From a virus: a stretch of DNA of 24,039 nucleotides. The notes under the pieces are model-generated. The model did no database searches and had not been told where the DNA came from. It saw nothing but the letters and a program-made list of their open reading frames with translations. Positions 8,059 to 24,039 of the stretch are shown here, piece by piece; within the stretch, counting starts at the first letter, position 1; every line of letters begins with the position of its first letter. The translations under genes were made by a program, and so were the position numbers. Location: positions 1-24,039 of IMG/VR virus record IMGVR_UViG_3300025137_000285. One strand, given 5' to 3'.

Positions 8059-11000
8059 ATGGCTATTCAAAAGAAGTCACAGACTCAATGTTTTTTGGAG
8101 AACGGAGGACAACTCTGGAAGCTCCCTATATCTGATTACAGTTTTTCTCAAAACTTAAATCAGGAGGATATAGTAATAAATGAAATGAGTACAGGTGTCG
8201 CTCTAAATAGAAGTATAGGCCAAGAAAATATTTCATTAGATCCTGCAGACTGGAGTTTAACTACTTTTGCAAAACCTTTCAAAACTACGGGGTCAGGAGA
8301 TGGCAGAGCTTCTTTAGTTTCAGGAAATCATCATGCAACTGATGAGGCATTATGGAGCATGCTTGGGAGCTCTCAAGGCGCAGTTTTACAGCCAGGAACT
8401 GCACTATCAGATTTAGATACATATAGAGGTAAAGTTACTTGGACTACAGCAGATATAAGTACGGCACATGGAGGCTCCAATGCAAATACAATTGGATATT
8501 GGGCACACGCAGAGCCAAATGTTTTTGATTTGTATGTTCTAGAGAAGTTTGAGCCTAATATAGAAGCAAATTATCAAGATACTTTTATTTGGACTTGCAC
8601 TACAGCAGGTGGGTTAAAGATACCTGTAGAGCGTGGAGTTAATCGATCCAATCAACTAGAACGAAATGGGAATGAAATGAGAGCATATTCTGACGTTGCT
8701 CATGGTGGTGGTCCAGTTTTATTTGTATATTCCTATGTTCATGCTAATCAAGGAAGCTCTGAGTTTTTTACAACTTTACTTATTCCTTCAGATACAACTT
8801 TTCATGATTTTTTAAATACAAATGGTGCTTTAACTATTACGGGTACTCCAAAGTCAACCGTGTACCTTTCAGGGGTAAAAGACGCTGTTGCAAGCTCTAA
8901 GTGGAGTTTTGATTTTTCTCAGTCTCAAAAAGAGCAACTAGCAACTGGAAATCTATATTTTGTTACAGATATTCCTCAAGTAACAACTGTAGCGGGAACA
9001 GTAAATTCCTCCAATCAACTAATTTTAGAAGCCACACATCATCATACCGATATTGAGTGGAATTTTTTTGGTAGCGATTCCTACGCTTCTTTCTTTAAGG
9101 GAGGATATGTACCATATGTACATATTGATCATTTACAGTATCAAAATACAACTAGCGTTACTGGGTGGAGCTTACCTACTACATGGTTTGTAAGTGGTAA
9201 AGGTACTCCAGCTGCTAGAACGGGCAGCGTTGAGACTAAAAATTGTGTGTACCCTAGCAAGATAATTAGAGATGGGGTTGAGTATCCTGTAACAGTATTT
9301 GGTACTGATTCAATTGGAGATAGTAGCATTTCAGCTATATGGAACGATGGTTCAAATTATTGGCACTGTCCTACTTTCAGATTTAGAGTACAAACTGATG
9401 GTAAAGTTAACACTATCCAAATAAGAGACTCAAAAGCTCCAAATGTACTCGCTGTAAGTGTAGCCAGCTGGGGACAGCGAGCAGGAGGTATAGCAGGAGA
9501 TATATTTGTAATACCTGCAGGAACTTTAGACGATAATGGTGTAGCACTTCCTGTAGAGGTAAGATTTGTTGCTACCTCTGCTTCTTCTATGGATTTGGGA
9601 CGGTTACCTACCTCCGCTGATAGAGATGTTTTTATATATGGAACGGAAAATTATAAAAGCGATCTTACTAAAACTCCTCAATTTGAAGTATTTGGTCGCG
9701 GTAGACCTCAATGGTTAGTGGATAATGATTTTTATGTTGAGGTAGAAAAAGTTGACTCTGGAACTACATTTTCTTTAACGGAAAATTCTAACTCTCGTCA
9801 AGATCTCAGGCAGATTACTACTGCAACTACACAAACTGATTGTAATGATTCAAGAAATATTACTTTAAGTGCTTCAAATTCAAATATACGTTTAGGAGCT
9901 TTAGTAACAGGAAGTTTTACCGATAAGAGAGTATATGTTAGTTTTATATCAGGAACTACTTTAAGAGTTCAGGGGAATGTAACAATACCTGCAGGAACTA
10001 CTTTAACTTTTATAGACTACCCTGTTAAAGCAGGTCTTAGTCAAGGAGAGTATAGATGGTATAATTCTGACGGTAGAAACCATCTAATATATAGAGAACC
10101 CGCTGATTTTACTGGGCATAATCCTGATTTAATAAGAGTATACACTTCCCGAAATAAAAATACGGGTGGAAGTGCTGTTATGAAACTAGAAGACTGTGTA
10201 ATTGATACTGCTTCTCTAAACTTTGGCATAGATAGTATGACACAAATTACTTGGACAGGTTATGCCAAAAAAATACATCAAGAAGCCCCTAACTTTATTA
10301 TAGCTTCCTCCGCTCCTTCGAGCCCCTCAGCAAAAGATATTTTTTACGATATAGATGATGATAAAGTACAAATTAGAAATGCTGCGAATACTGCTTGGAT
10401 AAATTGTATTACTGAAGGAGTAGATAAAGAAGATAACTTTATAATAAATAAACTAGGCACTCTTAAACTTGCAAATAATGTTGGAACTGCTCAAGTAAAT
10501 ACAATACTATTAGATGAATTAATATTTTCCGATCCAAATGCATATTCTTATTTAGGAGGATCGTCTAAATACTACTCCGGTTTAGCAGGCACAAATGGAA
10601 TGACTGCAAATATTGCTGCAACTATAATTAATTTAGGAGATATTAATGCCAGAGAAAATAATACTCAAGCCTCTTATGCGGAAACTGCAAATTGGTTAGG
10701 TGATTATGACTGGAGTTTAAATATAGACGGTCAAACCTATGGCTCCTCTCACTTTAAAGGCGTAGACACTTGGACAGTAAACTCTACTTTAATAACTGCT
10801 ATGAGATCCGAAACAACTTTTGGAGATTTTTTATTGGCAAAAAACGTAGGAGTTTGGCATAATAATGCTAACATACTTTTAATGTTTTGCACAGGAACAA
10901 ACGCATCTTATAATACAGCAGCTAAGCTTGCTGCAGCAAATATAACTTTGACAGGAACAGCAAAATCCTCTGTTAAAACTTTTGAAGAGTTTAGTATTCC

Positions 11001-11532
11001 AATTACGGGTGGAACTGTTACTATTTTAAATAATATACAAACTATTACAAGAAATGAAATTGGAAAAGTCAATACAATGGATTCTCATGTAACAGGTGCC
11101 AGAATAATAAAAGGAGAAGTAAGCGCTTATTTAGACGATACTACTTCTATTGTTAGAAACAGGATATTTGAAGAAATGAATGAATCTATAGCTTATTCTG
11201 CTTATGGTGAAGGCGATACTGAAATGGGATTTAGTAATCCTTATACATATAATGTTGAAATGTCTTTAGGAGGAACTTATTTAGCAGATAATACTGTTAA
11301 TTTAAAAATGCCAACTACTAGCTTTAAGTTGCCCACAATAGATTCAGAAGAAGTATTTACAACAAATATACAATTTACCGCATTAGATCCTGGAGTATAC
11401 CAGAGAGATATAATTTCACTTAATGAGGCATTTCCTTTATTTAATAATTTTGTGCCAACACCTTATGCTGGCAATACAGGCACGCACAATCAGCAAGGGA
11501 AAGAATTAAATGTAATTTATAAAGGTAAGTAA
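8059..11532 (+). CDS. Giant tail tube paralogue with inserted domains
   Basis: The product has 1157 residues. Its ends and two internal blocks align by eye with the 379-residue tube protein just upstream: residues 1-107 (SFSQNLNQEDIVINE, FAKPFKTTGSG, HHATDEALWSML), about 706-740 (CVIDTASLNFGIDSM), about 788-808, and about 976-1130 (EIGKVNTMDSHVTGAR, LPTIDSEEVFTTNIQF). Between them lie about 600 extra residues (108-705), a short piece with SSAPSSPSAKDIFYD (about 741-787, like tail-fibre linkers), and about 160 residues (812-975). The first and last extra parts share a pattern (TTFHDFLN with LTITGTPKS, and TTFGDFLL with ITLTGTAKS), suggesting a duplicated module. No enzyme motif is visible. Minor tube subunit, decorated tube or baseplate ring component are possible roles; the insertions may bind carbohydrate, which is unproven. 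Lying behind a terminator, it is probably made in lower amounts. Confidence 0.8.
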   Translation: MAIQKKSQTQCFLENGGQLWKLPISDYSFSQNLNQEDIVINEMSTGVALNRSIGQENISLDPADWSLTTFAKPFKTTGSGDGRASLVSGNHHATDEALWSMLGSSQGAVLQPGTALSDLDTYRGKVTWTTADISTAHGGSNANTIGYWAHAEPNVFDLYVLEKFEPNIEANYQDTFIWTCTTAGGLKIPVERGVNRSNQLERNGNEMRAYSDVAHGGGPVLFVYSYVHANQGSSEFFTTLLIPSDTTFHDFLNTNGALTITGTPKSTVYLSGVKDAVASSKWSFDFSQSQKEQLATGNLYFVTDIPQVTTVAGTVNSSNQLILEATHHHTDIEWNFFGSDSYASFFKGGYVPYVHIDHLQYQNTTSVTGWSLPTTWFVSGKGTPAARTGSVETKNCVYPSKIIRDGVEYPVTVFGTDSIGDSSISAIWNDGSNYWHCPTFRFRVQTDGKVNTIQIRDSKAPNVLAVSVASWGQRAGGIAGDIFVIPAGTLDDNGVALPVEVRFVATSASSMDLGRLPTSADRDVFIYGTENYKSDLTKTPQFEVFGRGRPQWLVDNDFYVEVEKVDSGTTFSLTENSNSRQDLRQITTATTQTDCNDSRNITLSASNSNIRLGALVTGSFTDKRVYVSFISGTTLRVQGNVTIPAGTTLTFIDYPVKAGLSQGEYRWYNSDGRNHLIYREPADFTGHNPDLIRVYTSRNKNTGGSAVMKLEDCVIDTASLNFGIDSMTQITWTGYAKKIHQEAPNFIIASSAPSSPSAKDIFYDIDDDKVQIRNAANTAWINCITEGVDKEDNFIINKLGTLKLANNVGTAQVNTILLDELIFSDPNAYSYLGGSSKYYSGLAGTNGMTANIAATIINLGDINARENNTQASYAETANWLGDYDWSLNIDGQTYGSSHFKGVDTWTVNSTLITAMRSETTFGDFLLAKNVGVWHNNANILLMFCTGTNASYNTAAKLAAANITLTGTAKSSVKTFEEFSIPITGGTVTILNNIQTITRNEIGKVNTMDSHVTGARIIKGEVSAYLDDTTSIVRNRIFEEMNESIAYSAYGEGDTEMGFSNPYTYNVEMSLGGTYLADNTVNLKMPTTSFKLPTIDSEEVFTTNIQFTALDPGVYQRDIISLNEAFPLFNNFVPTPYAGNTGTHNQQGKELNVIYKGK

Positions 11533-11541
11533 AAAAAGTTC

Positions 11542-11570
11542 TTGACTTTTTTCTTGATTTAAAATATACT
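11542..11570 (+). promoter_or_regulatory. Sigma70-type promoter before tail chaperone genes
   Basis: TTGACT (11542-11547) and TATACT (11565-11570) are 17 bases apart, each one mismatch from consensus. They lie in the 115-base gap between the giant tube paralogue and the chaperone gene, the longest gap in the window. The predicted transcript starts near 11577 and has a leader of about 70 bases. Confidence 0.72.
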
Positions 11571-11594
11571 ATGTAGTATCAAAATGTTTCAAAG

Positions 11595-11625
11595 AGTGCA
11601 CACGTAGCACTTATTTTCTTTTTTT
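11595..11625 (+). terminator. Weak hairpin with T-rich tail in chaperone leader
   Basis: AGTGC (11595-11599) pairs with GCACT (11607-11611) around a seven-base loop, with a possible G-T pair outside, followed by a T-rich stretch (TATTTTCTTTTTTT). The stem is short, so it is at best a weak terminator. Because it lies downstream of the promoter at 11542-11570 it could act as an attenuator or protect the RNA end. Confidence 0.4.
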
Positions 11626-11647
11626 AATTTCATATACAGGATATAAC

Positions 11648-12073
11648 ATGAGCGAGCAAGAAGTAGTATCACTGTCATCTTTGATGACTCCCAGTAAAAC
11701 AGTACAGATAGATTTTCCAGGTTATAAAGATTTTAGAGTTTTAGTTTGTTACTTAGCACGAGAAGAATTAGTTAAGCTTCGTAAAAAGTGCATGACAACA
11801 AAGTTTAATAAAAGAACTCATCAACCTGAAGAAGAATTAAACGAAGATAAATTTTTAACAGAATATTGTAAAGCAGTTATTAGAGGCTGGTCAGGCTTCA
11901 AATACTCTTACCTAGAAGAGCTTCTTTTGGTGGATGTATCTAGCTATGATGCTGACGATGAACTTCCTTTTACTACAGATAATGCGGAAACGTTGATGAA
12001 AAACTCAAATGGTTTTGATACGTGGCTTACAGAAACCGCAAGTGAACTGGAAAATTTTACTCAGAACAAGTAA
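11648..12073 (+). CDS. Tail assembly chaperone, short form (gpG-like)
   Basis: The product has 141 residues, with AGGATAT before the ATG. In long-tailed phages the gene just before the tape measure encodes a chaperone that coats the tape measure and keeps it soluble until tube protein replaces it; lambda gpG (140 residues) is the model. Here size, place, the mixed charged sequence (VCYLAREELVKLRKKCM, about 33-49) and a C-terminal acidic region fit. Sequence likeness alone is weak, as is usual for these proteins. The main support is the recoding site at the 3' end that joins it to the following frame. The stop at 12071-12073 is used by ribosomes that do not shift. Confidence 0.82.
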   Translation: MSEQEVVSLSSLMTPSKTVQIDFPGYKDFRVLVCYLAREELVKLRKKCMTTKFNKRTHQPEEELNEDKFLTEYCKAVIRGWSGFKYSYLEELLLVDVSSYDADDELPFTTDNAETLMKNSNGFDTWLTETASELENFTQNK

Positions 12074-12492
12074 GCAGAATACAAAACTTACTTGTTCGAT
12101 ATGTAAATCAAGCTTCAACGTTTGATCTAGACAAGTATTTACAAATTTGTGAACAGCTAGGCGAAGAACCTGACCCCGAAAGAATGCCGGTTGAACTAAC
12201 AGGAATGCCTGTAGAAGTTCAAACGGCATTTTTTATATATGGATTTCTTCCTGATGTTTGGGATGGAATGTCTGGTACTTATATGGGGAAAGACTGGTCT
12301 TCGCTACAATATTTTATGACTATTTATGAGGTCGAAGAAGAAAAAGTAGTAATTATGTTTATGAAAATGTATGAAACAATTACTATTAACCATAGAGCAG
12401 ACAAACAACAAGAGAACCGTAAAAAAGCAGAAAGACAAGCAAAAAACTCTGCAGGAAGTGGTGGTAACTACACTCATAGTGTGAAAGGTTAA
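11648..12492 (+). CDS. Tail assembly chaperone, frameshifted long form (gpGT-like)
   Basis: A -1 shift at the heptamer ending at 12058 joins 137 residues of the first frame to 144 of the next, giving about 281 residues, close to the lambda GT fusion. The -1 frame is open from 12046 to the stop at 12490-12492; a TGA in that frame at 12043-12045 and the zero-frame stop at 12071-12073 confine the shift to a 28-base window, in which A_AAU_UUU is the only standard slippery site. The added T-like part begins YSEQVSRIQNLLVRYV and ends in a charged, Lys/Arg- and Gln-rich tail (near QQENRKKAERQAK). In lambda the T domain binds tube protein while G binds the tape measure. No ribosome site precedes ATG 12184, so that frame is not a separate gene. 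The tape measure ATG follows its stop immediately. Confidence 0.88.
12052..12058 (+). promoter_or_regulatory. -1 programmed frameshift slippery site A_AAU_UUU
   Basis: The zero frame reads GAA-AAT-TTT; the bases 12052-12058 (AAATTTT) fit X_XXY_YYZ. After slipping, translation continues TAC-TCA-GAA and stays open to 12492. The zero-frame stop lies 12 bases downstream. I see no strong stem just after the site, so any stimulator is weak or absent. Confidence 0.85.
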
Positions 12493-15400
12493 ATGGCAAA
12501 GAAGAATAGAGTACAAATAGACGTAGAAATTAATGGTAAAATGCAAAAAGCAACCGTTGATGCCAAAAAACTTCGTGGACAACTAGACGGACTAAGTGGT
12601 AGTGCTCATTCAACAGATCGTCGTCTTAAAGGTGCTTCTCAGCAATCTGCAAATACAACTAAAAACTTTTCAAAAATGGCTCAAGGTATTACTGGAGGAC
12701 TTGTTCCTGCGTATGCAATTTTAGCTTCTTCTGTATTTGCCATGTCTGCAGCTTTTAACTTTTTAAAGAATGCTGGTGATCTTCGTACTTTACAACAGGG
12801 TCAAGTTGCATATGCTAGTGCTACTGGTGTAGGATTAAGAACTCTAACAAAATCTGTGCAGGATGCAGCAGGAGGAATGCTGACATTTAGAGATGCTGCT
12901 CAAGCAGCTTCTATTGGTGTAGCTGCAGGTCTTAGTCCCGATCAGCTAACTCGTCTTGGTAAAGCCGCAAAAGATGTTTCTATTGTATTAGGTAGAGATG
13001 TTACTGACTCTTTTAATCGTCTTGTAAGAGGTGCTACAAAAGCAGAACCTGAACTACTTGATGAATTAGGTATTATACTAAGATTAGATGACGCTACAAA
13101 ATTATACGCAGATAAACTAGGTATAGCCGCGGGAACTCTTACTACTTTTCAAAGACAACAAGCAGTAACAAATTTTGTACTGGGAGAAGCAGAAAGAAAG
13201 TATGGTGCTATACTTGATATTGTTGAAGTTCAGCCAAATGCTTTTGCACAATTAGGTAAAGCATTTGATGATATTATGAACAAAGTAAAGTCTTTAATAG
13301 AGACTGCACTTAGCCCTCTTGCTGAAACTCTTACTCGATTTCCCGCATTAGCCGTAGCAGCTTTTGGTTTGCTAGGTGCAAGTATTATGAAATCAATTAT
13401 TCCTGGATTACAAGACTTTGGAGCAAATGCAAAATCTAACTTTGAAATTTTTAGTAGTCAAGCAGAAATTGCACGTCAAAGAGCAGTAGCATTTAATGCA
13501 ACCTTAGCTAAAGCTAAACTAGATCCTGGGGCAACTTCTGCGATGGGAGATGCAGCGAGAGCCGGTGCTAGTTCGACTTTGCAGCAGGCAGGACCAAAGT
13601 CAGCTTTCTCAGGAAAGTATGCTCAAGTTCATGCAGGTGACTTTTCTAATATAAGCAAAAAACAAGTTAGTAACATGATAGAAGATCTTGAAAAAGGAAC
13701 TGGACAAGCAAAACTACTTTCTCAAAGTATGAGAGATTCTATGATTTTGGACTTAAAAGATGTTCAGTTAGAAATGAAAGTCACCGGAAATGTCGTAGAA
13801 GTAGAGACAGCAGAAGCAACTACAAAAGCCAAGTTTTCTTTTAAATCTTTTGAGCTAAGTGCAAAAGCAGCAATTGCAGGAATTAAAGCTCAAATGTCTA
13901 CTCTTGCAATCGCTGCATCTAGATTAATGTCTGCATTTGGTTGGATTTCTATACTTGCAACTGCAGGTACTATGCTTTATAGCTTTATAAAACCTGTAAA
14001 AGAACTAACTGCTGAAGAAAAGAAATTAGCAGAAACTACTGAAAACTTAGAGAAAAAATTACAGAGTCTCGGAAATGAATTTACTTTTTTAACTGATGTA
14101 ATGCAGCATCATAACAAAGAAGCCTTTACTTTAGCAGAAACCTTTACTGTGCTAGGAAATGCACTTAGTAATTTAAGCGAAGATGAAATGGGTTTGAATG
14201 TTAAAAACTTTGAATCTGCTCTTCCTGTACTTCAACAAATAAGTAAAGAAATAGATCGGTTAAATACTAATAGGGCTGCGTATAATGCCAAGGATGTAAG
14301 TCAAGGCAGAAAACCCCGGTTTGAAATGATAGATAGTTCTATGGAAGGAATTGTAAAACGGGCTCAGTCTGGTGTTAATGATTTAAGTGATGAAGAAGCT
14401 GCCGCCGTAGGATTTTTTACAACAATACAAAATGCAATGAACGCTACAGAAAATGAAGCACTAAAAAATGCAACTTCATTTAAAAACTTAGCCGCTGCTT
14501 TACAAGGAGTTGGAGAAGTAAGTTTAGAGGAAGCAATAAAACAGTTTCAAGCTTCATCAAAAGCTTTGGACTCAATAACAAAAACAGGTGTTGAAAACGC
14601 TAAAAAATCTAGACAATTATTTGCAAGTTTTATGCCTGAGAGTAAATTTGATCAACAAGTGGCTCTTTTAGAAGCTGAAAAGAAAGCAATTGATGAGCTT
14701 ACAGCTAAGGAAGGGACACTAAGCGCAATAGAAGAAGAAAGACTAAAAGTGATTGAAAAACAAGTTATTGCTTTTAAACGCATAGCCGTAGAAAAACATA
14801 AAGATCTTATGATGACTATGAAAATTAATAATATGGCTCTAGCTTCCCAGAGAGGTGCGACTCCTTTACAAAAAGAAAGATTAAATACCCAAAAAGAACT
14901 TCTTCATGTAAATAGAAAAATTGTTGCAATACAAAACAATAATAGAATTGTTCAATCAAAAATTAATGAAGAAGTGAAAAAAGCAACTGCCAATGGCTTA
15001 TCAGCTTCAGAAGCAAATGTTACTGCAGGAGAACGACAGCTCGAAATAAATAGAGAAAAAACTTTAGAGTTAGCACTGCAAAAACAAGCTTTAGAGGATC
15101 AATTAAATTTACAGTTTCAACTGAATGAAGCATTTAAAGCAGGGTTTGAAGCACAAACTACAAAAGGCGTAGAGGGTCTTATTACTGGAGAGGAAAGCAG
15201 TTTCGGAGACGTTGCACTAGAATCAGTACAAGCAGGGTTAAAAGGAATGGCGAGTACTTTAGCTAAAGATATGTCTAGAAATGTAAGTGACTTCATGTTT
15301 GGAAAGAAAGCATTAAAAGATCCAGAGAATGCGGATGACGTACTAAAGACAGTATATGATAGTGCAACTGGTGCTCTTAAAGTAGTTATGGCTGGTGCAC

Positions 15401-16566
15401 CTAAAGTAGATCCTAAACCTACTCCTTCAACTCCGGGCAAAGTCGACCCTAAAAACTTTGACACAGGAGGAGGGACTCCAGGTGCGGGACAATCTATTTT
15501 TAACGCTGATGGTAGTATTAATCAAACAAGAGGCTACTCTATGGGCACTGGTAATATGATGAGCGCTGATGGTGCAATAGATTGGGCTTCTTTAGGTGTA
15601 ACTAAGGAAAGTATGGCGAAACCAACAATAACAGGTCAAGGTGCTGGAGTTGTTGGGGGCATGGCAAATGTTACAAAAGAACAACTAGCTGGTTCAGGTC
15701 TTAGCTTAACCGAATATATGAATCAAATGAACGCTACAGGAACTCGACCTGGAGAAGGTGGAGACGGTGAAGGGCTTCCAGGAGGCGAAGGCTTTTTAGA
15801 AGGATTAAAAAATGTATTTACAGGGGAAGGAAGTGAAGATGGTTTTGTAGGAAGACTTGGTACTTTCTTCCAAGGACAAGCCGAAGGGGAGGGTTTTATA
15901 GGAAAAATGTCAACTTTCTTTACTGAAGCAGCAAACCATAAAGATGGATTTGTAGGTAAGCTAAAAGATACCTTTAAAGAAAAACTGCTTGGACCTGATG
16001 GCTTTCTACAAGGATTAGGGTCTACTTTTAAAGAGAAAGGCAAGAATCTTTTAGATGGATTAGGCGGCTTTTTAGGTAAAATGAAAGATGGTTTAGGAGG
16101 ATTTTTAAGTGAGATGGGAGGAGCTCTTAAAGGTCTTTTTAGTGGCGGTGGCGGTGGCGGTGGCCTCGGAGGCTTACTAAGCACTGTAGCCGGAGCGTTT
16201 GGATTTGGGGGTGGAGGTGTAGGCGCTAGATACGGCGGTATCATGAAAGAGTATGCTACTGGAGGAATCGCAAGAGGTAGAAATGCTGGATATCCTGCTA
16301 TGCTTCATGGAACAGAGGCTGTAGTTCCTTTACCTAACGGAAATAAAATTCCTGTAGAAATGCAAGGTGGTGGAGGAAATAATATTACAAATAATATTAC
16401 AGTAAATGTAAGCAAAGAAGGTGCCTCTCAAGAAACTACTTCCTCTATGGGAGAAAGCTCAAAAGACGATGCAAAACTAGCAAATGCACTATCTTTAGCG
16501 GTACAAGAAGAACTTGTAAAACAACAAAGACCTGGCGGATTATTAAGCCAGTATGGAGCAGGCTAA
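12493..16566 (+). CDS. Tape measure protein
   Basis: The product has 1357 residues and is one of the two longest proteins wholly in the tail operon. Tape measures set tail length at about 1.5 angstrom per residue, so the tail should be near 200 nm. Features in order: basic N-terminus, hydrophobic segment at about 68-92 (VPAYAILASSVFAMSAA), an Ala-rich conserved region (about 100-215), further hydrophobic stretches at about 280-305 and 485-500, helical and coiled-coil middle (about 510-880), a Gly-rich repeat region (1099-1216), poly-Gly, and the usual end GGIARGRNAGYPAMLHGTEAVVPL (key element LHGTEAVVPL). Hydrophobic segments are thought to enter the cell membrane during DNA injection. I see no peptidase or transglycosylase motif, so cell-wall cutting may rest with the K-like protein. 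The ATG abuts the chaperone stop with AAAGG five bases before; its stop overlaps the M-like start. Confidence 0.95.
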   Translation: MAKKNRVQIDVEINGKMQKATVDAKKLRGQLDGLSGSAHSTDRRLKGASQQSANTTKNFSKMAQGITGGLVPAYAILASSVFAMSAAFNFLKNAGDLRTLQQGQVAYASATGVGLRTLTKSVQDAAGGMLTFRDAAQAASIGVAAGLSPDQLTRLGKAAKDVSIVLGRDVTDSFNRLVRGATKAEPELLDELGIILRLDDATKLYADKLGIAAGTLTTFQRQQAVTNFVLGEAERKYGAILDIVEVQPNAFAQLGKAFDDIMNKVKSLIETALSPLAETLTRFPALAVAAFGLLGASIMKSIIPGLQDFGANAKSNFEIFSSQAEIARQRAVAFNATLAKAKLDPGATSAMGDAARAGASSTLQQAGPKSAFSGKYAQVHAGDFSNISKKQVSNMIEDLEKGTGQAKLLSQSMRDSMILDLKDVQLEMKVTGNVVEVETAEATTKAKFSFKSFELSAKAAIAGIKAQMSTLAIAASRLMSAFGWISILATAGTMLYSFIKPVKELTAEEKKLAETTENLEKKLQSLGNEFTFLTDVMQHHNKEAFTLAETFTVLGNALSNLSEDEMGLNVKNFESALPVLQQISKEIDRLNTNRAAYNAKDVSQGRKPRFEMIDSSMEGIVKRAQSGVNDLSDEEAAAVGFFTTIQNAMNATENEALKNATSFKNLAAALQGVGEVSLEEAIKQFQASSKALDSITKTGVENAKKSRQLFASFMPESKFDQQVALLEAEKKAIDELTAKEGTLSAIEEERLKVIEKQVIAFKRIAVEKHKDLMMTMKINNMALASQRGATPLQKERLNTQKELLHVNRKIVAIQNNNRIVQSKINEEVKKATANGLSASEANVTAGERQLEINREKTLELALQKQALEDQLNLQFQLNEAFKAGFEAQTTKGVEGLITGEESSFGDVALESVQAGLKGMASTLAKDMSRNVSDFMFGKKALKDPENADDVLKTVYDSATGALKVVMAGAPKVDPKPTPSTPGKVDPKNFDTGGGTPGAGQSIFNADGSINQTRGYSMGTGNMMSADGAIDWASLGVTKESMAKPTITGQGAGVVGGMANVTKEQLAGSGLSLTEYMNQMNATGTRPGEGGDGEGLPGGEGFLEGLKNVFTGEGSEDGFVGRLGTFFQGQAEGEGFIGKMSTFFTEAANHKDGFVGKLKDTFKEKLLGPDGFLQGLGSTFKEKGKNLLDGLGGFLGKMKDGLGGFLSEMGGALKGLFSGGGGGGGLGGLLSTVAGAFGFGGGGVGARYGGIMKEYATGGIARGRNAGYPAMLHGTEAVVPLPNGNKIPVEMQGGGGNNITNNITVNVSKEGASQETTSSMGESSKDDAKLANALSLAVQEELVKQQRPGGLLSQYGAG
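15787..16140 (+). repeat. Degenerate 17-19-residue protein repeat in tape measure
   Basis: Residues about 1099-1216 of the tape measure hold successive units starting EGF, DGF, EGF, DGF, DGF, DGL and DGL, each followed by a hydrophobic and Lys/Gly pattern, for example DGFVGRLGTFFQGQAEG and DGFVGKLKDTFKEKLLGP. Unit length is mostly 17-19 residues, with one of 11. The DNA is diverged, so the repeat is old or selected at protein level. Confidence 0.7.
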
Positions 16567-16937
16567 TGTCATTAATTGGATTTACAACCACACTAGGACA
16601 CGACTTCACTCCAGATAAAAGCCTTACAATTAGTAATACACCTACTATAATTACGGCAAAATTTGGAGATGGCTATGAGCAGAGAGCTAGAAAAGGTATT
16701 AATAGTTTACAAGTTTCTTATGCAGTTACTTTTTCAAATAGAACTCTATCAGAGGCTCAAGAATTATCAAGGTTTTTTGAAGAGGTACTGGGAGTAACTT
16801 CTTTTGATTTTAGTTTACCTAAAACAAGTCTTAACACATACAATGTAGTAAGCGTAGTATGTGACGACTACTCTAGAACTATGGACTATAATAACTACCA
16901 TACAATAACGGCAACATTTAGAAGAGTATATAATTAA
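16566..16937 (+). CDS. Minor tail protein M-like
   Basis: The product has 123 residues, close to lambda gpM. Recognisable elements are AKFGDGYEQRARKGIN (about 31-46), a conserved block of this family, and the ending ITATFRRVYN. Lambda gpM is a tail-tip component added with L and needed to complete the tip complex on which the tube grows. Its start overlaps the tape measure stop (TAATG) and its own stop overlaps the L-like start in the same way, so M and L are translationally coupled. Nothing unusual is seen, in contrast to the greatly enlarged L-like neighbour. Confidence 0.92.
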   Translation: MSLIGFTTTLGHDFTPDKSLTISNTPTIITAKFGDGYEQRARKGINSLQVSYAVTFSNRTLSEAQELSRFFEEVLGVTSFDFSLPKTSLNTYNVVSVVCDDYSRTMDYNNYHTITATFRRVYN

Positions 16938-19900
16938 TGCCAACTAGAATAAATAGAACTCAAGAAATAGATAATTCTTTGCAGAAACAAGAGCTAGAGG
17001 CTCTTGTAAATCTTTTTGCAATTTATTTACCAAACCCCTCTTCTGTGGGTAGCTGGCTTGCTGAGCCAACATACACCTTAACTGCGGTTGATGTCTCACA
17101 ATCACATCTTGCATATTCCGTGCCTAATGCGAACTTCTCTGATCCCACAAAAAAACCCTTTAATTTTATAATAAAAGGTAAAAAATATCAGTTTGATCCA
17201 ATACCTATTGAAATAGATGGTATAGAGTATACTTCTGAAAGTGCTATGCCGCACCCAATGGTAACAATAGGTAATATAAACTTACCTGGGTGGAAGCCAG
17301 AATCTTTATTAGGAGCTAAATTTCAGTATATACAAACTTTTCAAAAATATGTTAATACTGATACTTCTTTGCCAGTACAAACTTTTATTATAGACTCAAT
17401 AAAAGAAGAAACTTTTTCATATATTCAATATGAACTAGTTGCTCCCTATGATTTGCAAGACGTAAAGTTACCTAGAAGAAGAATAGTAGGGGGACAGTGC
17501 CCTTGGATATATAAAGGAGCCTCAGAAAAATCTGGAAGACATAATTTTATAGCTACAGATGCTATTAGAGGGGGCTGCAACTGGCCTGATGATAATATTT
17601 ATGTAACAGGAGGCCAGGGGAGGGCTTCTTTACTATTTATGAATTCAAACGATGAATATGTAGTTGATGCAAGATTAATACCTTTAGCTACTAGAAATTA
17701 CGCAGAAAAACCGGCAGACCAAGGTATTACTGCCGGACAATATTTTTATACTATTTCTTCGTCTTACAAGTTAGACAGTCAAGGACTAAAAGACCCTAAT
17801 TTAAGCATAGTATACCAATACTGGCAGGCTATGAAAACTGTTACTTTTGATCAACCAGTAGACGAACCTTCTGCAGATAGCCCTTTCTGGAGACAAGTAA
17901 GAGTATATAAACCTTACAATTATACTAATACTTATTGTGCATATTCTGACTCTCGTTTTAATGATTACGTTAGTCTTTCGCAGGGAGGTACTACAGTAAA
18001 TAATGCAGGATTAGCCAGTCTTGTAGAAGGTTATGAATTTGTAGAGCCAGAACCCATTAATGAGATAATACCATTAGATAGTTTTTCGGAAGTATTAGAC
18101 AACGCAGGAGGAAAAGCTTTAAGGTTAGCTATAGACCCTGGTACATCTTTGGAGATATTAGCTAATTACATAGCCGATGTAGAATATTCAACAGATGATA
18201 TGGGAGCTTATATAAATACTAGAACTAACACAGCTGTGGGCTCTTTTGCAGCTCAACCTGGTACTGACCAAACTTGGTTAAATTTAGTCGCCCCTATTTA
18301 TAATTCAGGACTTTTATATAGTAAACAAAATATTCAAGGTTGGGGAATGGCACCAGGACAAGTTGTTCTTGTAGATGAGACAAACTTAAATCCTGCATAT
18401 AATTCTATTAAAGCAGGAACTGATTATTCTTTATGGATAGGTCTTGGAGCCAATACAGTTGAAGAAACTAATGGATTAAGTGGGTTTTTAAGTCCAGAAG
18501 GAGAGTTTTTGTCTTTGTGGATGCATACAAAAAATGAAAATACACAAACTCAAAAACAAATTTATCAAGTAAAGAACAAAACTCTTGACCCAAATAAACT
18601 ATCTAGACTTCAGCACGGACCCTTTCCTCCTAGAGATACTAGGAGCTTTAATTATGAAAACTGGAATGCTGGAGATCAGTGTAGTAAAACTTTAGATGCG
18701 TGCGTTCTTAGATTTCAATCAGCAGCTTTAGCGGTGGAAGAAGACGAGTCAGTTAATACTAATTTTGATTGGAATATGACACCTAGATACTCTGATGATG
18801 CATCAGGAATTAGAAATATATATTATATGGCAACTCTTACGCCAAGCTACGACTTTAGCCGAGGGGCCGAAGGGCAGAGCGGAGTCGACCTCCTAGGAAG
18901 GAGTCCTGTAGTAAGATATCTTAGATGTGACGATGATGTTTTATATAATAGCTTACCTGATGAAGGTTTTGTAAATGTCGAGATGTACATAGATGGACAA
19001 TATAGAACTAATTATCCTTACTATAAGCATAATAAAACAGGGCAAGATAATTATTTAGATGATGGAAATGATGTAAGTTTTTCTGGTAGTAAGACAGGAA
19101 GCGAGTATACAGGAGCAATGGGCCATAAATTAAGCCCTAGATTAAATCTTCCAGACATGGCCGATAAGGGTTTTGGAGATTATTACTATATTAAACTAGC
19201 TCCTCAAGAAGACTCAACTTCTCCGGGTACTTTTACTCCTGGTTGGGCAACTTTTACTGAAGGGGCGGAAGTTACTACGGCATCAGGAAGAGAGGTGTTA
19301 TTTCACCCTGACCGAAGTATAAGGAGTGGTGGCAACCGAAAGTTAGGCATTGGCGTTGACGGCTCTTCATATAATTTTACGTTTAAATGGTCTGGGTCTG
19401 AAAACCCGGCACAGGGGGGCACTCCTTCACAGCCTCACGGTCTAATAATGGCTGATATAGACGTACTTGGCGTTGAAAATGAAGGGGCAGTAAATGGTTT
19501 ATTTCTAATTAGTATGGCGGGCCTAGAAGCAGAAACTGCTCCTTTTGAAATCGATCGATTTGATAATATGACAGAGGGCGGTATGGGAATGAGCCCTCGA
19601 GGCTATCTTGGCGACATAGGAGTGCCTGATGTGACTATAACAGCCAGTGGCAGTGGCGAAGGCGTTGGCACCTTTCTAACAGGTACAAAAAATAATGCAG
19701 TGGCACATGGGGGCGCATCTTCGGGGTGGACTGTGGGCTCTAGGTCTTGGACTCAACCTGTATTAAGAGATAAAGACGATAATGCTATAGCAAACGGAAC
19801 TATAGACCCAAGTACAGGACAAACATATAAATTTAGATTTTCTAATTTTACTAATTTAGGTAATACTCCGTTAAGCCCAGTTTTACAATCACAAATTGCT

Positions 19901-19942
19901 CTACCTTTTGGAGGTTTTCCAGGCTCAAGGAGGTTCAAGTAA
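16937..19942 (+). CDS. Minor tail protein L-like, greatly enlarged by two insertions
   Basis: The product has 1001 residues; lambda gpL has about 230. Residues 1-220 follow gpL: LEALVNLFAIYL, IEIDGIEYTSESAMPHPMVTIGN, LVAPYDLQDVKLPRRR, then QCPWIYKG (C188) and GGCNWP (C214). The third and fourth signature cysteines, usually some tens of residues on, lie at DQCSKTLDACVLRF (C582, C589), and the family's terminal FGGFPG motif is at 991-996, at the very end. Lambda gpL binds an iron-sulphur cluster through four cysteines; all four positions seem kept here, with C582-C589 at the seven-residue spacing I recall for lambda. About 365 residues lie between the cysteine pairs and about 390 between RF592 and FGGFPG. 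The second insertion is much GC-richer than the rest. AAGGAGG near the 3' end serves the next gene. Insertion functions are unknown; surface-exposed binding domains at the tail tip are likely. Confidence 0.88.
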   Translation: MPTRINRTQEIDNSLQKQELEALVNLFAIYLPNPSSVGSWLAEPTYTLTAVDVSQSHLAYSVPNANFSDPTKKPFNFIIKGKKYQFDPIPIEIDGIEYTSESAMPHPMVTIGNINLPGWKPESLLGAKFQYIQTFQKYVNTDTSLPVQTFIIDSIKEETFSYIQYELVAPYDLQDVKLPRRRIVGGQCPWIYKGASEKSGRHNFIATDAIRGGCNWPDDNIYVTGGQGRASLLFMNSNDEYVVDARLIPLATRNYAEKPADQGITAGQYFYTISSSYKLDSQGLKDPNLSIVYQYWQAMKTVTFDQPVDEPSADSPFWRQVRVYKPYNYTNTYCAYSDSRFNDYVSLSQGGTTVNNAGLASLVEGYEFVEPEPINEIIPLDSFSEVLDNAGGKALRLAIDPGTSLEILANYIADVEYSTDDMGAYINTRTNTAVGSFAAQPGTDQTWLNLVAPIYNSGLLYSKQNIQGWGMAPGQVVLVDETNLNPAYNSIKAGTDYSLWIGLGANTVEETNGLSGFLSPEGEFLSLWMHTKNENTQTQKQIYQVKNKTLDPNKLSRLQHGPFPPRDTRSFNYENWNAGDQCSKTLDACVLRFQSAALAVEEDESVNTNFDWNMTPRYSDDASGIRNIYYMATLTPSYDFSRGAEGQSGVDLLGRSPVVRYLRCDDDVLYNSLPDEGFVNVEMYIDGQYRTNYPYYKHNKTGQDNYLDDGNDVSFSGSKTGSEYTGAMGHKLSPRLNLPDMADKGFGDYYYIKLAPQEDSTSPGTFTPGWATFTEGAEVTTASGREVLFHPDRSIRSGGNRKLGIGVDGSSYNFTFKWSGSENPAQGGTPSQPHGLIMADIDVLGVENEGAVNGLFLISMAGLEAETAPFEIDRFDNMTEGGMGMSPRGYLGDIGVPDVTITASGSGEGVGTFLTGTKNNAVAHGGASSGWTVGSRSWTQPVLRDKDDNAIANGTIDPSTGQTYKFRFSNFTNLGNTPLSPVLQSQIALPFGGFPGSRRFK
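19201..19740. other. GC-rich island inside the L-like gene
   Basis: Hand counting gives about 48% GC over 19201-19740, up to 55-58% in single 60-base lines, against about 22% at 17161-17220 and 33% at 18901-18960 in the same gene. A smaller rich patch lies near 18841-18900. Codons such as GGC, GCC and GTC become common. It covers much of the second insertion, suggesting acquisition from a different source. Confidence 0.65.
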
Positions 19943-19944
19943 TG
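19927..19944 (+). promoter_or_regulatory. Strong ribosome binding site for the K-like gene
   Basis: AAGGAGG at 19927-19933 lies eight bases before ATG 19942 and is formed by the last codons of the L-like gene (S-R-R-F-K end). It fixes the start of the K-like gene and, with the TAATG overlap, gives both coupled and independent initiation. Confidence 0.85.
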
Positions 19945-20637
19945 GATAATGAAATACTAAAATATTGTTTTGAAAAATACCCTGAAGAAGCTTGTGGAGT
20001 AGTATTGAATCAAAAAGGTACTTTAAAATGGATTCCTTGCGAAAATGTAGCAGAGGATAAAGAAAATAGTTTTAAAATTTCTGCAGTAGACTATGCATCT
20101 CTTTCTTTACAAGGAGATATTTATGCCATAGTACACAGTCATCCAGATGAAAGTTGCGAGCCTAGTGAAAAAGACAAAAAAGCGAGCGAACATTTAAAAG
20201 TTCCATATCATATATACTCTATACCAAGCGGAGAAAAACATGTATATACTCCTAGTGTTTCTATAGAGCCTTACATAGCAAGAGTTTATGACTTTGGTGT
20301 AACAGATTGTTGGACTTTAGTAAGAGATTACTATTTACAAGAGTTTAAGTATACACTACCTATGATAGAATTTGATGAAGAATTCTATGATAAAGGAATA
20401 GACTATTTTGGAAATAATATGGAAGCATGGGGAGGCTTTGAAGTAGATACTCCTCAAATTGGAGATGTAGTTCTATTTAAAATAATGAATGATATAGAAA
20501 ACCATTGTGGGGTTTATATAGGGGAAGGAAAGTATATTCATCACATGAGAGACAGGCTCTCTTGTACAGATAGTATTTACTCTGGCTGGGGTAAATATAT
20601 TACGAGGTATATAAGATGCAAAAAGTTGTTCTCGTAG
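19942..20637 (+). CDS. Tail tip assembly protein K-like: JAB/MPN plus NlpC/P60 peptidases
   Basis: The product has 231 residues with two hydrolase domains in the order known for lambda gpK. Residues about 1-105 are a JAB/MPN metalloprotease: E16 in PEEACGVV and HSHPDESCEPSEKD, giving H65, H67, S75 and D78 of the JAMM zinc site. Residues about 115-231 are an NlpC/P60 cysteine peptidase: DCWTLVRDYY with C123 and HCGVYIGEGKYIHH with H188. All key residues are present, so both domains look active. The NlpC/P60 domain could cut peptidoglycan during entry; the JAB domain may process a tail protein, though its substrate is not established. It sits between the L- and I-like genes as in lambda. Its last 22 bases overlap the next gene in another frame. 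Confidence 0.95.
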   Translation: MDNEILKYCFEKYPEEACGVVLNQKGTLKWIPCENVAEDKENSFKISAVDYASLSLQGDIYAIVHSHPDESCEPSEKDKKASEHLKVPYHIYSIPSGEKHVYTPSVSIEPYIARVYDFGVTDCWTLVRDYYLQEFKYTLPMIEFDEEFYDKGIDYFGNNMEAWGGFEVDTPQIGDVVLFKIMNDIENHCGVYIGEGKYIHHMRDRLSCTDSIYSGWGKYITRYIRCKKLFS

Positions 20638-21239
20638 GAGACTTAGCACAGTTTGGAGAAGTTTGGCATACTGAATGTAAAGACATTGCAAGTATATTTA
20701 AACTCATCTCCTGTCAGACTCCTGGATTTCGTAAATATCTTATAGATGCTGATGAAGCAGGTTTAGATGTAGAAATAGTAAAAGGGGGAGAACTTTTAGT
20801 TGACCCAAGAGAGATTCTCATGCAGATAGGGTCTGAGGATATTGTAATAACCTTGTGTCCTTCAGGAGGTAAAAGTAAATTTTTGCGCATCGTATTTGCT
20901 GTAGCTTTGTACTTTACTCCTTTAGGTCCTTTTACTGCAATCGCTCAAGGTATCGCAATTAATTTGGGTCTAAGTGTAATATCAGAAATGCTAGCTCCCG
21001 GCCCTGAGACTCAACAACAAAGAAATCAAATTGATGGAGAAGAAGTAGGAGACAGACTATTTAATGGACCAGTAAATGTAAGTAAAAATGGAACAGTAAT
21101 ACCTTTATTGTATGGAGAACTTATAGTAGGGGGCGCTGCAATAAGTGCAGAATTTTTCCAAGTGAGGGACAACGCTGCAGAAAATACATTTATAGATTCA
21201 TCTATTCAAGATTCAACAGTAAGGTTATATGGAAACTAA
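20616..21239 (+). CDS. Tail tip assembly protein I-like
   Basis: The product has 207 residues. The N-terminal 80 residues form an alpha/beta domain (VVLVGDLAQFGEVW, GFRKYLIDADEAGLDVEI), followed by a long hydrophobic region at about 88-127 (FLRIVFAVALYFTPLGPFT, then AIAQGIAINLGLSVI), a polar linker, and NGPVNVSKNGTVIPLLYGEL (about 150-169; key element GTVIPLLYGEL). This is the layout of lambda gpI, required for tail-tip assembly but not detected in the finished lambda tail. The hydrophobic segment could be a membrane or assembly element. It starts inside the K-like gene, and the J-like ATG follows its stop after two bases. The call rests on motif and place. Confidence 0.9.
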   Translation: MQKVVLVGDLAQFGEVWHTECKDIASIFKLISCQTPGFRKYLIDADEAGLDVEIVKGGELLVDPREILMQIGSEDIVITLCPSGGKSKFLRIVFAVALYFTPLGPFTAIAQGIAINLGLSVISEMLAPGPETQQQRNQIDGEEVGDRLFNGPVNVSKNGTVIPLLYGELIVGGAAISAEFFQVRDNAAENTFIDSSIQDSTVRLYGN

Positions 21240-21241
21240 TA

Positions 21242-24039
21242 ATGGCTAAAATTTCAAATCAAACAGGAAGGATATTAGATGCTATTTCAGCAGGGCCAAT
21301 TGAAGGTCTTGTAAACGGGAACGCTAGTGTGTTTTTGGATGACTCCTCAGTTGCAAGAAAAACACTAGTAGATGATGCAGGTATAGATGTACCCACAAAT
21401 ACATTAAATATGACTGCTAATTTTGTACAAGGAAGTAGTATAGTAACTGTTCCAAAAACTGCAGAATTACAGGCTTTGATAGGTAATCTTAGTGCTAACT
21501 TTCCTAGATTTTTATGGTTAGAGGGGGCAGGAAGACAAGCAGCTCTTTCAAACTATTCAGGAGTGGGAAGTACTAATACCACAGCATTCTCTAGGTTCGG
21601 TTCATTTGCAAACGCAAGCAAAAGTACTGGTGGACTAGGGGGTAAAGCTCTACAAACATATCCTTTTGTTCGTAATGAGATAGATGATGATAATTTTGGT
21701 ACTTTATTTAATGACCCTGCATATAGAATCCATGCACGAGAAATTGTGGATTTAAAAAGCTTTTATGAGGATGGTACGATTACAACCCAAAGTACTACTT
21801 CTGATATTAAACAAACTTTTACAGTAAATATGGTAGCAAATCCAACTTTAGTCAGTGCGCGCAATTCCCCGACCTTCTCCAGGTCAGGGCTAAATCTTGT
21901 TACTGCTAATGTAGAAAGAAAACATTACTTTAAAGATATATCTACTTATAGTTATGGGGATCATCCTGATGGCGGAGATACTTTTACTACCGCTGGAGTA
22001 GATGATATATCAGACGAAGTTCTTTTAAAAAGGATAGACCTCAGTACTATTACACCATCAGATACTGTTTCTGGCCATATTGGTATTTTGGGTAATGAGG
22101 GGTTTCACCCTAGAGGTAGTCGATGGTTAGCAAATGGAAATGAGGAGACAGATTTTATACTTTTTGACGGAGTATATAAAATTGTAGATATTAGCCCTGC
22201 TGCAGATAATAATTTTATAGAAATACAAATTGATACTAGTACATCAGATTCCAGTACTACTAATATGTTAACTCCTAGACCTCCTGCTAGAACAAGAGAT
22301 AATGTTAGGGCTCATGTTTTTACTGTCGGAGGCGCGGGTGTGGACTCTGGAGGAACTTTACGTGGTGACGTTCAATTTAAGACAGGAGAAAGAGAGCAAT
22401 TAGAGCTCTCTGCTGTAGAAGGTGGCACAGCTCCTCCAAGAACAAATGTAATTATAAATCCAAATACTACACTTCTTTTATCTAGTTCTTTTACTAATGG
22501 AACATCTGTACCTACAATTTATACGGCTTCTGGCTCTTCCTCAGCTTCTTTAGGGCTGTCTGCTTTACAGACTAAACAAATAGATGCAATACGATTAAAT
22601 CTGCTTTTTCCAAATGGGTTATTTGCTATAGAAAGGGATGGAGACTACATTGATGGAAAATTTGACGCAGTAATTAGATTTAGGCATAGAAATAGCACCT
22701 CAGAAGAATTCAAAGAAGTATTAGTAAGAGGAACAGAAAAATCTGGAAGTTGGTGGGAAAGCGGAACTAGTGATTCCGAATTTTCTCAAGATATAGCAGC
22801 GGGGGTAGGAGTGAGGATATTTGAAAATAAAAAATCTGTTTTTTCCAAAGAGCTCCTTATTGATGTCTCCGTATTCCACCCCTTTATAGATTTTGAACTA
22901 GAAATAGAAAGGCAAACACCAGATAACTTTGATGATTATATGGCAGGAGGTAGAATATTTGATACAGTAGATAACGATAATGAAGTTAAAAGTTTTTCCG
23001 GAACTGCAGTAGTTCAATATGTTCAAGCTTTATTTTATGATAAGTTTACTTACCCACTTACAGCGTATGCAGCAGTAACTTTTTCAGGTGCAGATTTTGA
23101 CAAAATACCTACTCGAGGTTATCATTGTAGAGGTTTAAAAGTAGCTGTACCCAGTAATTATATAACTAGAGAGGAAGATGCTTTAGTTTCAGGAGACAAA
23201 GGAATCGCTCGATATTCGAGAACTGTATCGGGGTACAACAAAATACTAGTTAATCAGGATATTGATAATCAAACAATATTGACAAATACTTTAACTTTTA
23301 CATTAGATGCAGGAGAACTAAATATAAATAGGCCAGATGGATCTTATGATGTAGGGTACTGGAAAGATAAACAATATGGTGGTTCAACTCAGCATGCTGC
23401 TAATATATCCCCTAATGTAGATGACTTGATTATAAGTTTTTACAACTCTGATCCAGATAAAGATGGAAGTCTTTCTCATGCTTCTAACGTACGAGTAAGA
23501 TTTAATCCCGACTATAAACTGCATGGAACTAATTTTCAATTATATCAACAGTTGGATAGTTTTACTGTTACTGATATAGTATCTCAACAAGTTCTTACTT
23601 ATGACACTGACTATTCATTTTTTGATAATATTATGGATGGTAGTACTCCCGGAGTTCAAATATCTCAAACTAATTATGATGCAGCACTTCCTGGTATTAC
23701 TGCCGGCAAAAGCTATACTGTAGTTATGAACTTTAAAAGTAATGTAGTTAGACCGAATAATTATGAACTATGGGATGGTAGCTTTAGAGGTCCTGTATAT
23801 TGTAATAACCCCGCTTGGATATATTTAGATATATTGAATCAACCAGATTATGGACTAGGTGACTTTTTAAAATTAGAAGATGTAGATATATACGAACTAT
23901 ATGAAATAGCAAGACATTGTGATGAGTTAGTACCGGATGGAAAAGGGGGCTTAGAGCCTAGATTTACGTGTAATGTTTATTTAAATAAACCTACTGAAGC
24001 TTATCAGCTTTTAAAAGATTTGGCGTCAACATTTAGAGG
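21242..24039 (+). CDS. Tip attachment protein J-like (partial, runs off the window)
   Basis: The frame is open from ATG 21242 to the window end: 932 codons, incomplete at the 3' end. The start is classic gpJ: ISAGPIEGLVNGNASVFLDD (about 15-34; key element GPIEGLVNG). Later signatures are RGLKVAVPSNY (about 630-640), YELWDGSF (841-848), NNPAWIYLDILNQPDYGLG, and HCDELVPDGKGGLEPRFTCN (key GGLEPRFTCN). gpJ-type proteins form the central tip hub and, at their C-terminus, the host receptor-binding fibre, which is not in view. In lambda only about six residues separate VPSNY from WDG; here about 200 do, so roughly 190 are inserted. The VPSNY motif also lies much further from the N-terminus than in lambda, implying extra sequence around residues 160-400. 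This continues the pattern of the L-like gene and the giant tube paralogue. Confidence 0.95.
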   Translation, partial: MAKISNQTGRILDAISAGPIEGLVNGNASVFLDDSSVARKTLVDDAGIDVPTNTLNMTANFVQGSSIVTVPKTAELQALIGNLSANFPRFLWLEGAGRQAALSNYSGVGSTNTTAFSRFGSFANASKSTGGLGGKALQTYPFVRNEIDDDNFGTLFNDPAYRIHAREIVDLKSFYEDGTITTQSTTSDIKQTFTVNMVANPTLVSARNSPTFSRSGLNLVTANVERKHYFKDISTYSYGDHPDGGDTFTTAGVDDISDEVLLKRIDLSTITPSDTVSGHIGILGNEGFHPRGSRWLANGNEETDFILFDGVYKIVDISPAADNNFIEIQIDTSTSDSSTTNMLTPRPPARTRDNVRAHVFTVGGAGVDSGGTLRGDVQFKTGEREQLELSAVEGGTAPPRTNVIINPNTTLLLSSSFTNGTSVPTIYTASGSSSASLGLSALQTKQIDAIRLNLLFPNGLFAIERDGDYIDGKFDAVIRFRHRNSTSEEFKEVLVRGTEKSGSWWESGTSDSEFSQDIAAGVGVRIFENKKSVFSKELLIDVSVFHPFIDFELEIERQTPDNFDDYMAGGRIFDTVDNDNEVKSFSGTAVVQYVQALFYDKFTYPLTAYAAVTFSGADFDKIPTRGYHCRGLKVAVPSNYITREEDALVSGDKGIARYSRTVSGYNKILVNQDIDNQTILTNTLTFTLDAGELNINRPDGSYDVGYWKDKQYGGSTQHAANISPNVDDLIISFYNSDPDKDGSLSHASNVRVRFNPDYKLHGTNFQLYQQLDSFTVTDIVSQQVLTYDTDYSFFDNIMDGSTPGVQISQTNYDAALPGITAGKSYTVVMNFKSNVVRPNNYELWDGSFRGPVYCNNPAWIYLDILNQPDYGLGDFLKLEDVDIYELYEIARHCDELVPDGKGGLEPRFTCNVYLNKPTEAYQLLKDLASTFR
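21856..21889. repeat. GC-rich palindrome and hairpin inside the J-like gene
   Basis: TGCGCGCA (21856-21863) is a perfect palindrome. Eight bases on, GACCT (21871-21875) pairs with AGGTC (21881-21885) around TCTCC, and CCC (21868-21870) can pair with GGG (21887-21889) past a bulged A. The patch is about half GC in an AT-rich gene and keeps the reading frame (codes ARNSPTFSRSG). It might be a small inserted palindromic element. Confidence 0.45.

Follow-up and report, generated by a model that had tools for sequence, protein, structure and literature searches.

An enlarged lambda-type hub and a domain-bearing second tube protein in a siphophage tail module

The window analysed here, the whole stretch of 24,039 bases of a virus record, is a siphophage tail module in which a T5-type tube and tape measure are combined with a lambda-type tip. 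In the reading we prefer, given a probability of about 0.45, the tip end of this tail is bulked twice, by enlargement of the hub proteins L and J and by a ring of a decorated second tube-fold protein, TT2, which is probably a tip-end collar or adhesion skirt. The hub would have been enlarged on the outside of the tip, at the unit made up of the gpL C-domain and the gpJ HDII-insertion. A tube gene would have been duplicated, and the copy, TT2, loaded with additional residues in three loops that accept insertions. Like T5 p140, TT2 would most likely assemble at the tube's tip end into a single trimeric ring or a small number of them; its own decoration would then act as an integral collar or adhesion skirt, a task for which T5 pairs a bare p140 with a separate collar protein, p132, that bears side fibres. 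The skirt, lying next to the enlarged hub, could widen the contact with the cell surface or anchor fibres.

Gene layout of the tail module

Structural genes in the window all lie on the + strand, as do all window features given below. In order they are the end of the terminase, an HNH protein, the portal, a protease-capsid fusion, connector proteins and the tail terminator, followed by TT1, TT2, two chaperones, the tape measure protein, then M, L, K and I, and finally a truncated J. The head protease and major head protein are fused in a single 690-aa ORF (2337-4409). TT1 (6855..7994, 379 aa) is the major tail tube protein, undecorated and of the T5 pb6 type (phrog_3575, 6e-53); its residues 2-348 match pb6 of PDB 7qg9 at E 5e-36. 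TT2 (8059..11532, 1157 aa) follows, and 3' of it lie two tail assembly chaperone ORFs of the G/T type (11648..12492; phrog_313, phrog_3914). The chaperone ORFs overlap at 12046-12073 in a -1 relation; the heptamer there (12052-12058), which reads A_AAT_TTT in the first ORF's frame, is a candidate frameshift site of the lambda G/GT type.

Like the tube, the N-terminus of the tape measure protein (12493..16566, 1357 aa) is T5-like, resembling pb2 (phrog_3779, 1.5e-48). The tip is lambda-like and consists of an M-like distal tail protein (16566..16937, 123 aa; PF05939, 7.8e-21), an L-like hub protein (16937..19942, 1001 aa; PF05100, 1.5e-11, with a structure match to lambda gpL), a K-like JAB and NlpC/P60 protein (19942..20637, 231 aa; phrog_30, 2e-71), an I-like tail assembly protein (20616..21239, 207 aa; phrog_32, 1e-27) and a J-like hub/central fibre protein truncated where the contig stops (21242..24037; phrog_31, 1.5e-59). 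Judged against the sizes of the lambda proteins, M, K and I are of normal size, as the original prediction had stated.

Insertions in the tube-fold and hub proteins

TT2 aligned with TT1 in three colinear blocks: residues 1-115 with 1-116 (35% identity, E 1.7e-16), 710-804 with 161-221 (E 4e-4) and 978-1109 with 232-358 (34%, E 1.5e-12). About 590 extra residues separate the first block from the second, and about 165 precede the third. The pb6-type profile (PHROG 3575) covers both tube subdomains and was matched by TT2 in two stretches (4e-18). The predicted structure of TT2 (mean pLDDT 54.7, core mostly 70-90) superimposed on the T5 tube protein 9iny_A with a Z of 30.2 and an rmsd of 4.6 over 336 aligned residues, which identifies a duplicated tube fold, and on the T5 tail-tip chain 9ioz_A (293 residues), which we take to be p140, with a Z of 21.7. 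Decoration beyond the tube core totals about 780 residues and falls into insertion A (residues 106-706; 8374..10176), which has no known domain, a 52-aa hairpin (residues 738-789; 10270..10425; family site 195) and insertion B (residues 804-977; 10468..10989; family site 226). No intein or other Pfam family scored above cut-off in the inserts, and TT2 had no Pfam hit at E 0.1, PF23779 included. Residues 585-651 resembled small beta-barrels at a Z of about 6, which is under the trustworthy level, and fold prediction for the inserts was of low confidence (mean pLDDT 54.7 and 49.1).

When 98 distinct tube proteins were aligned, insertions at least 12 residues long clustered at TT1 positions ~106-156, 195 and 226, with few others, at position 15 and near the C-terminus; TT2 uses all three of the main sites. 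Tube proteins that are the only visible ones of other phages bear +24 to +168 aa at these same sites (for example in loci L098, L100, L102, L110, L148 and L161), and one of the two pb6-type copies in L178 bears +168 aa. Because such sole tube proteins are decorated there, a functional tube must tolerate extra residues on its exterior at these sites, which should not be lumen-facing, and from tube geometry the TT2 insertions should face outward. Between the window and its relatives L240/L242, identity was 52% in TT1, 41% in the TT2 core, 37% in insertion A (against L240), 67% in the hairpin, the best-conserved part of TT2, and 26% in insertion B, the most divergent. Insertion A is thus conserved to about the same degree as the core, and the hairpin more strongly, which suggests structured parts under constraint; the remaining insertions diverge quickly. 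The second TT2 copy (L240, the same as L089) is 1149 aa long, with reading frame and inserts kept.

Of 128 columns conserved among tube proteins, TT2 has lost 63 in the window and 59 in L089, against a median loss of 4 across all rows, and 49 are kept in both copies. The losses were not enriched in ring-contact loops (12/33 vs 31/95). They hint, at the level of sequence, at a reduced ability of TT2 to polymerise as bulk tube. A recent origin of TT2 from the TT1 of its own phage was set aside, as the two TT2 proteins fall, in a tree, outside the remaining 53 tube proteins, although their branches are long.

L matched gpL families solely over residues 80-196. Against lambda gpL (8iyk_L) it gave a Foldseek value of 4.3e-7 and a Z of 10.7 with an rmsd of 3.8 over 146 aligned residues, so the HDI fold is retained. 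Cysteines C188, C214, C582 and C589 were invariant in the 23 rows aligned and correspond to the four Cys of the gpL Fe-S site, and the C-terminal motif LPFGGFPG is kept, ending in FGGFPG as in gpL. Site 1 (17579..18679), an insertion of ~367 aa, lies between the second and third conserved Cys, and site 2 (18737..19891), of ~390 aa, between the Cys pair and the C-terminal motif. J keeps its N-terminal motif (residues 6-35), a middle block (443-645) and a block at 844-932; as expected of a gpJ, the N-terminal HDII motif is accompanied by the downstream hub block (phrog_31; 8iyk_J 259-347). Gap 1 (residues 39-440; 21356..22561) is 397 aa over the family spacing and follows lambda gpJ residue 52 in the alignment, and gap 2 (residues 641-842; 23162..23767), 177 aa over the family spacing, falls between gpJ residues ~251 and 259. 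Some of the extra length at L site 1 and J gap 1 is common to relatives, nearly all of which have an L of ~330-420 aa and a gap 1 of ~230-290 aa. Identity to L240/L242 was 49% in the L HDI, 39% and 30% in site 1 and 28% in site 2 (to L242); it was 58-71% in the J core blocks, 36% in the J gaps, and 52, 64 and 57% in M, K and I.

The claim that the tube paralogue, L and J keep family motifs on both sides of large insertions is therefore borne out, by the colinear TT1 blocks, by the Cys and end motif of L and by the blocks of J. The outer surface of the lambda tip includes the gpL C-domain, which together with the N-terminal region of gpJ equals one domain of T5 pb3, the HDII-insertion (PMC10721106). 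The gpL/gpJ hub region, close to the cell wall, is a published focus of hypervariability (PMC13243795). The L and J expansions are one composite hub unit of gpL C-domain and gpJ HDII-insertion, a known hot spot enlarged beyond the published cases found. The original prediction had placed the enlarged proteins on the outer surface, which agrees with the published location of the gpL C-domain and with TT2 sites that should face out; L and J, however, represent a single known hypervariable hub region and not several independent surface proteins. Two other arrangements were seen among relatives: L138 (14444-17179) encodes a 912-aa L with ~500 extra N-terminal residues, a third mode of growth of L, and in L091, L094, L105, L128, L134 and L219 I and J are joined in a single ORF whose residues ~250-310 hold the J N-terminal motif.

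Insert-against-insert comparison within the window gave short chance matches only. One candidate, a match of TT2 insertion B to L site 1 of L304 (E 2e-6), was rejected, since a profile built without the window misses it and its 102-bit score was circular; an internal repeat in insertions A and B (words around 240-270 and 917-972) reached E 1-4 only. In relatives, a short beta-rich module of the GYTSAPTVT type was found in L site 2 (L305 clade), in L site 1 (L278, L280, L281, L286 and L289), near the N-terminus of the L178 tube protein and in other proteins (L035, L068 and L262). Judged from sequence, the family does have a pool of movable domains from which several kinds of tail protein are supplied; for the window phage this is no more than a possibility.

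Distribution among relatives

Viral sequences were scanned with K, tape measure, tube, TT2 and L queries, which yielded loci L002-L319; the best 80 per query were used where more matched. This survey is a sample, and some of its loci share one contig. Of 326 records, 165 with all four measures were grouped by K identity into 114 clusters, of which 112 were left when L069 and L070 (L fragments) had been dropped before the tree. J gap 2 measured 155-195 aa in 11 clusters, and no other cluster exceeded 21 aa. L site 2 was at least 116 aa in 11/11 clusters with a large J gap 2, against 2/101 of the others (L110 and L307). On a tree of M, K and I the L/J co-expansion has two origins, a window clade (window, L242 and L103; starred at 99) and another centred on L305, so the coupling of L site 2 to J gap 2 is suggestive and not significant (sign test, p 0.5). 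The size of J gap 1 does not follow that of L or tube. L length and tube decoration gave a Spearman coefficient of 0.60 over 32 clusters, uncorrected for kinship; a joint gain of tube and hub decoration was set aside, as its 3 independent pairs were too few.

Protein and alignment scans for TT2 matched L002, L240 (the same as L089) and L241 (the same as L090 and L242) only. Tube regions were compared in the 151 loci showing both tube and chaperone genes. One tube gene adjoins the chaperone in 134, a figure that includes some loci with a 5'-cut tube ORF and also L090, L241 and L242, which are a single contig showing no tube ORF besides a truncated TT2; a p140-family protein lies between tube and chaperone in 14, and TT2 in three, the window plus L089 and L240 of one contig. 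In the large-L group, L099 and L103 have one 441-aa tube protein and no TT2 (L098 has the same tube); L is large in both, and J is also large in L103. TT2 is thus nested in the hub expansion and not tied to it, and since L/J expansion occurs without TT2, joint function is not required. The expectation that the insertions are gained and lost together fits L site 2 and J gap 2 (11/11) but not TT2, which is decoupled in L099 and L103. Window TT1 groups with L089 TT1, apart from the L103 tube, whereas the M-K-I tree unites L103 with the window and L242, which suggests recombination between tube and tip modules. A relative with a 51% identical K (L004 2-8413, and L010) carries its extras between the tape measure and M, as enlarged M-like genes (573 and 583 aa) and large putative fibre genes (1468 and 1859 aa). 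The tape-measure query found no relatives in cellular genomes, and published phages gave nothing closer than distant T5-like tube matches and family-level L/J matches.

The p140-type proteins of L172, L176 and L178 score 1.6e-10 or better with PF23779. Inserts of ~200 aa were present in two of the three p140-type proteins scanned (L172 and L178), and a similar insert was seen in L215 by alignment; the insert is near the N-terminus of these ORFs (L172 11263-12771; L178 11218-12912; L215 11216-12721), and that of L178 matches the lectin-like Laminin_G_3 at 3.5e-6. Within this phage family, a second ring protein has thus gained a large domain at least two times, and the ring protein concerned was not the same one. 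None of the 14 p140-type loci has a lambda-type L, and the gene after the p140-type gene encodes a pb9-like distal tail protein in both loci checked (L234/L323 and L176). Locus L178 (8013-12912) encodes three consecutive tube-fold proteins, pb6-type of 626 aa, pb6-type of 379 aa and p140-type of 565 aa.

Alternative readings and comparison with known systems

The tail of SPP1 has two major tail proteins, gp17.1 and gp17.1*, one of them decorated and the second made by frameshift. TT2 could similarly be a minor tube subunit mixed along the whole tail and displaying spaced whiskers, and this is the main rival, although we consider it unlikely. It accords with the tube scaffold that TT2 retains in both copies and with the published statement that decorated tube subunits are common (PMC13243795), but many residues common to bulk tube proteins are lost in TT2, and the position of its gene fits a baseplate ring and not a frameshift product. 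Rather less probable is independent, near-neutral growth at tolerant loops with no common function. Inserts of L and J at 28-39% identity against L/J core blocks at 49-71%, TT2 insertion B at 26% against 41%, and insert sizes that differ widely between lineages would all be expected from such growth; conservation of TT2 insertion A and the hairpin, and the joint expansion of L site 2 and J gap 2 in both origins, would not.

The original prediction went further and envisaged that tube and tip share a single coordinated system, either an outer coat or an array of related domains. The probably outward insertion sites, the kinship-uncorrected correlation of L length with tube decoration and the GYTSAPTVT-type module, shared by both L sites, the L178 tube protein and other proteins of relatives, lean towards it, but the insertions of the window are mutually unlike, TT2 is absent from L099 and L103 despite their large L, and J gap 1 varies independently of L and tube size, so we regard it as improbable. 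Mutual comparison detected no sequence common to the insertions, the lone TT2/L match having failed leave-one-out, and a coat along the whole tail gains no support over a local collar; the TT2 gene occupies the position that the baseplate-tube ring gene has in T5. An artefact (chimeric assembly, intein or pseudogene) has a negligible chance: L002, a separate 8.7-kb contig near-identical to the window, has the same TT2 start at 99.5%, L240 and L242 have open frames and a matching layout, and the inserts lack any intein match.

TT2 is read as a tip-end ring because it combines the p140 gene slot with a duplicated tube fold. Counting against the ring reading, p140 is undecorated, TT2 lies outside the p140 sequence family, and TT2 is known from few contigs (window/L002, L089 and L090). 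The fuller form of our preferred reading is tentative: TT2 would be a self-decorated collar ring from a second, independent pb6-type duplication, a trimeric skirt doing in one protein what p140 and p132 do in T5, and cooperating with the enlarged L/J hub. Enlarged hubs are already known, but building a tail-end collar from a second, decorated tube protein seems not to have been reported; in the open-access papers searched, titles and abstract openings describe no decorated second tube protein with a lambda-type tip. If the reading is right, tube rings, besides tips, get swapped and specialised, and a comparative map of the tube loops that accept domains becomes available.

The T5 collar consists of a bare tube-derived ring of p140, thought to derive from duplication of the tube gene, surrounded by p132, which holds the side fibres; the p140 and p132 pair is a landmark of T5-like phages, and lambdoid phages must anchor side fibres otherwise (PMC10038345). 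A decorated second ring before a lambda-type tip would, if the reading is true, be one way for lambdoid phages to do so. Like p140, TT2 is a second tube-fold protein whose gene adjoins the main tube gene ahead of the chaperones; unlike p140, a single undecorated trimeric ring between tube and distal tail protein that receives the p132 collar, it belongs to the pb6 sequence family, occurs alongside a lambda-type tip and is itself decorated, by ~780 aa. With pb6 and other decorated tube proteins TT2 shares a duplicated tube fold with decoration outside the ring, but pb6 has one C-terminal Ig domain whereas TT2 has three internal insertions in a second gene. The likeness to SPP1 gp17.1* lies in two tube proteins in a tail, one decorated; TT2 differs in being encoded by its own diverged gene (35% to the TT1 N-terminus) and is not a frameshift product. 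Window L and J share with lambda gpL and gpJ the HDI fold, the four Cys and the HDII-insertion site, and published hypervariable extensions (LSH1 and Jersey; PMC13243795) also occur at the gpL C-domain and gpJ N-terminal region, but the window hub differs from that of lambda in an L of 1001 aa against 232 and in four sites enlarged simultaneously.
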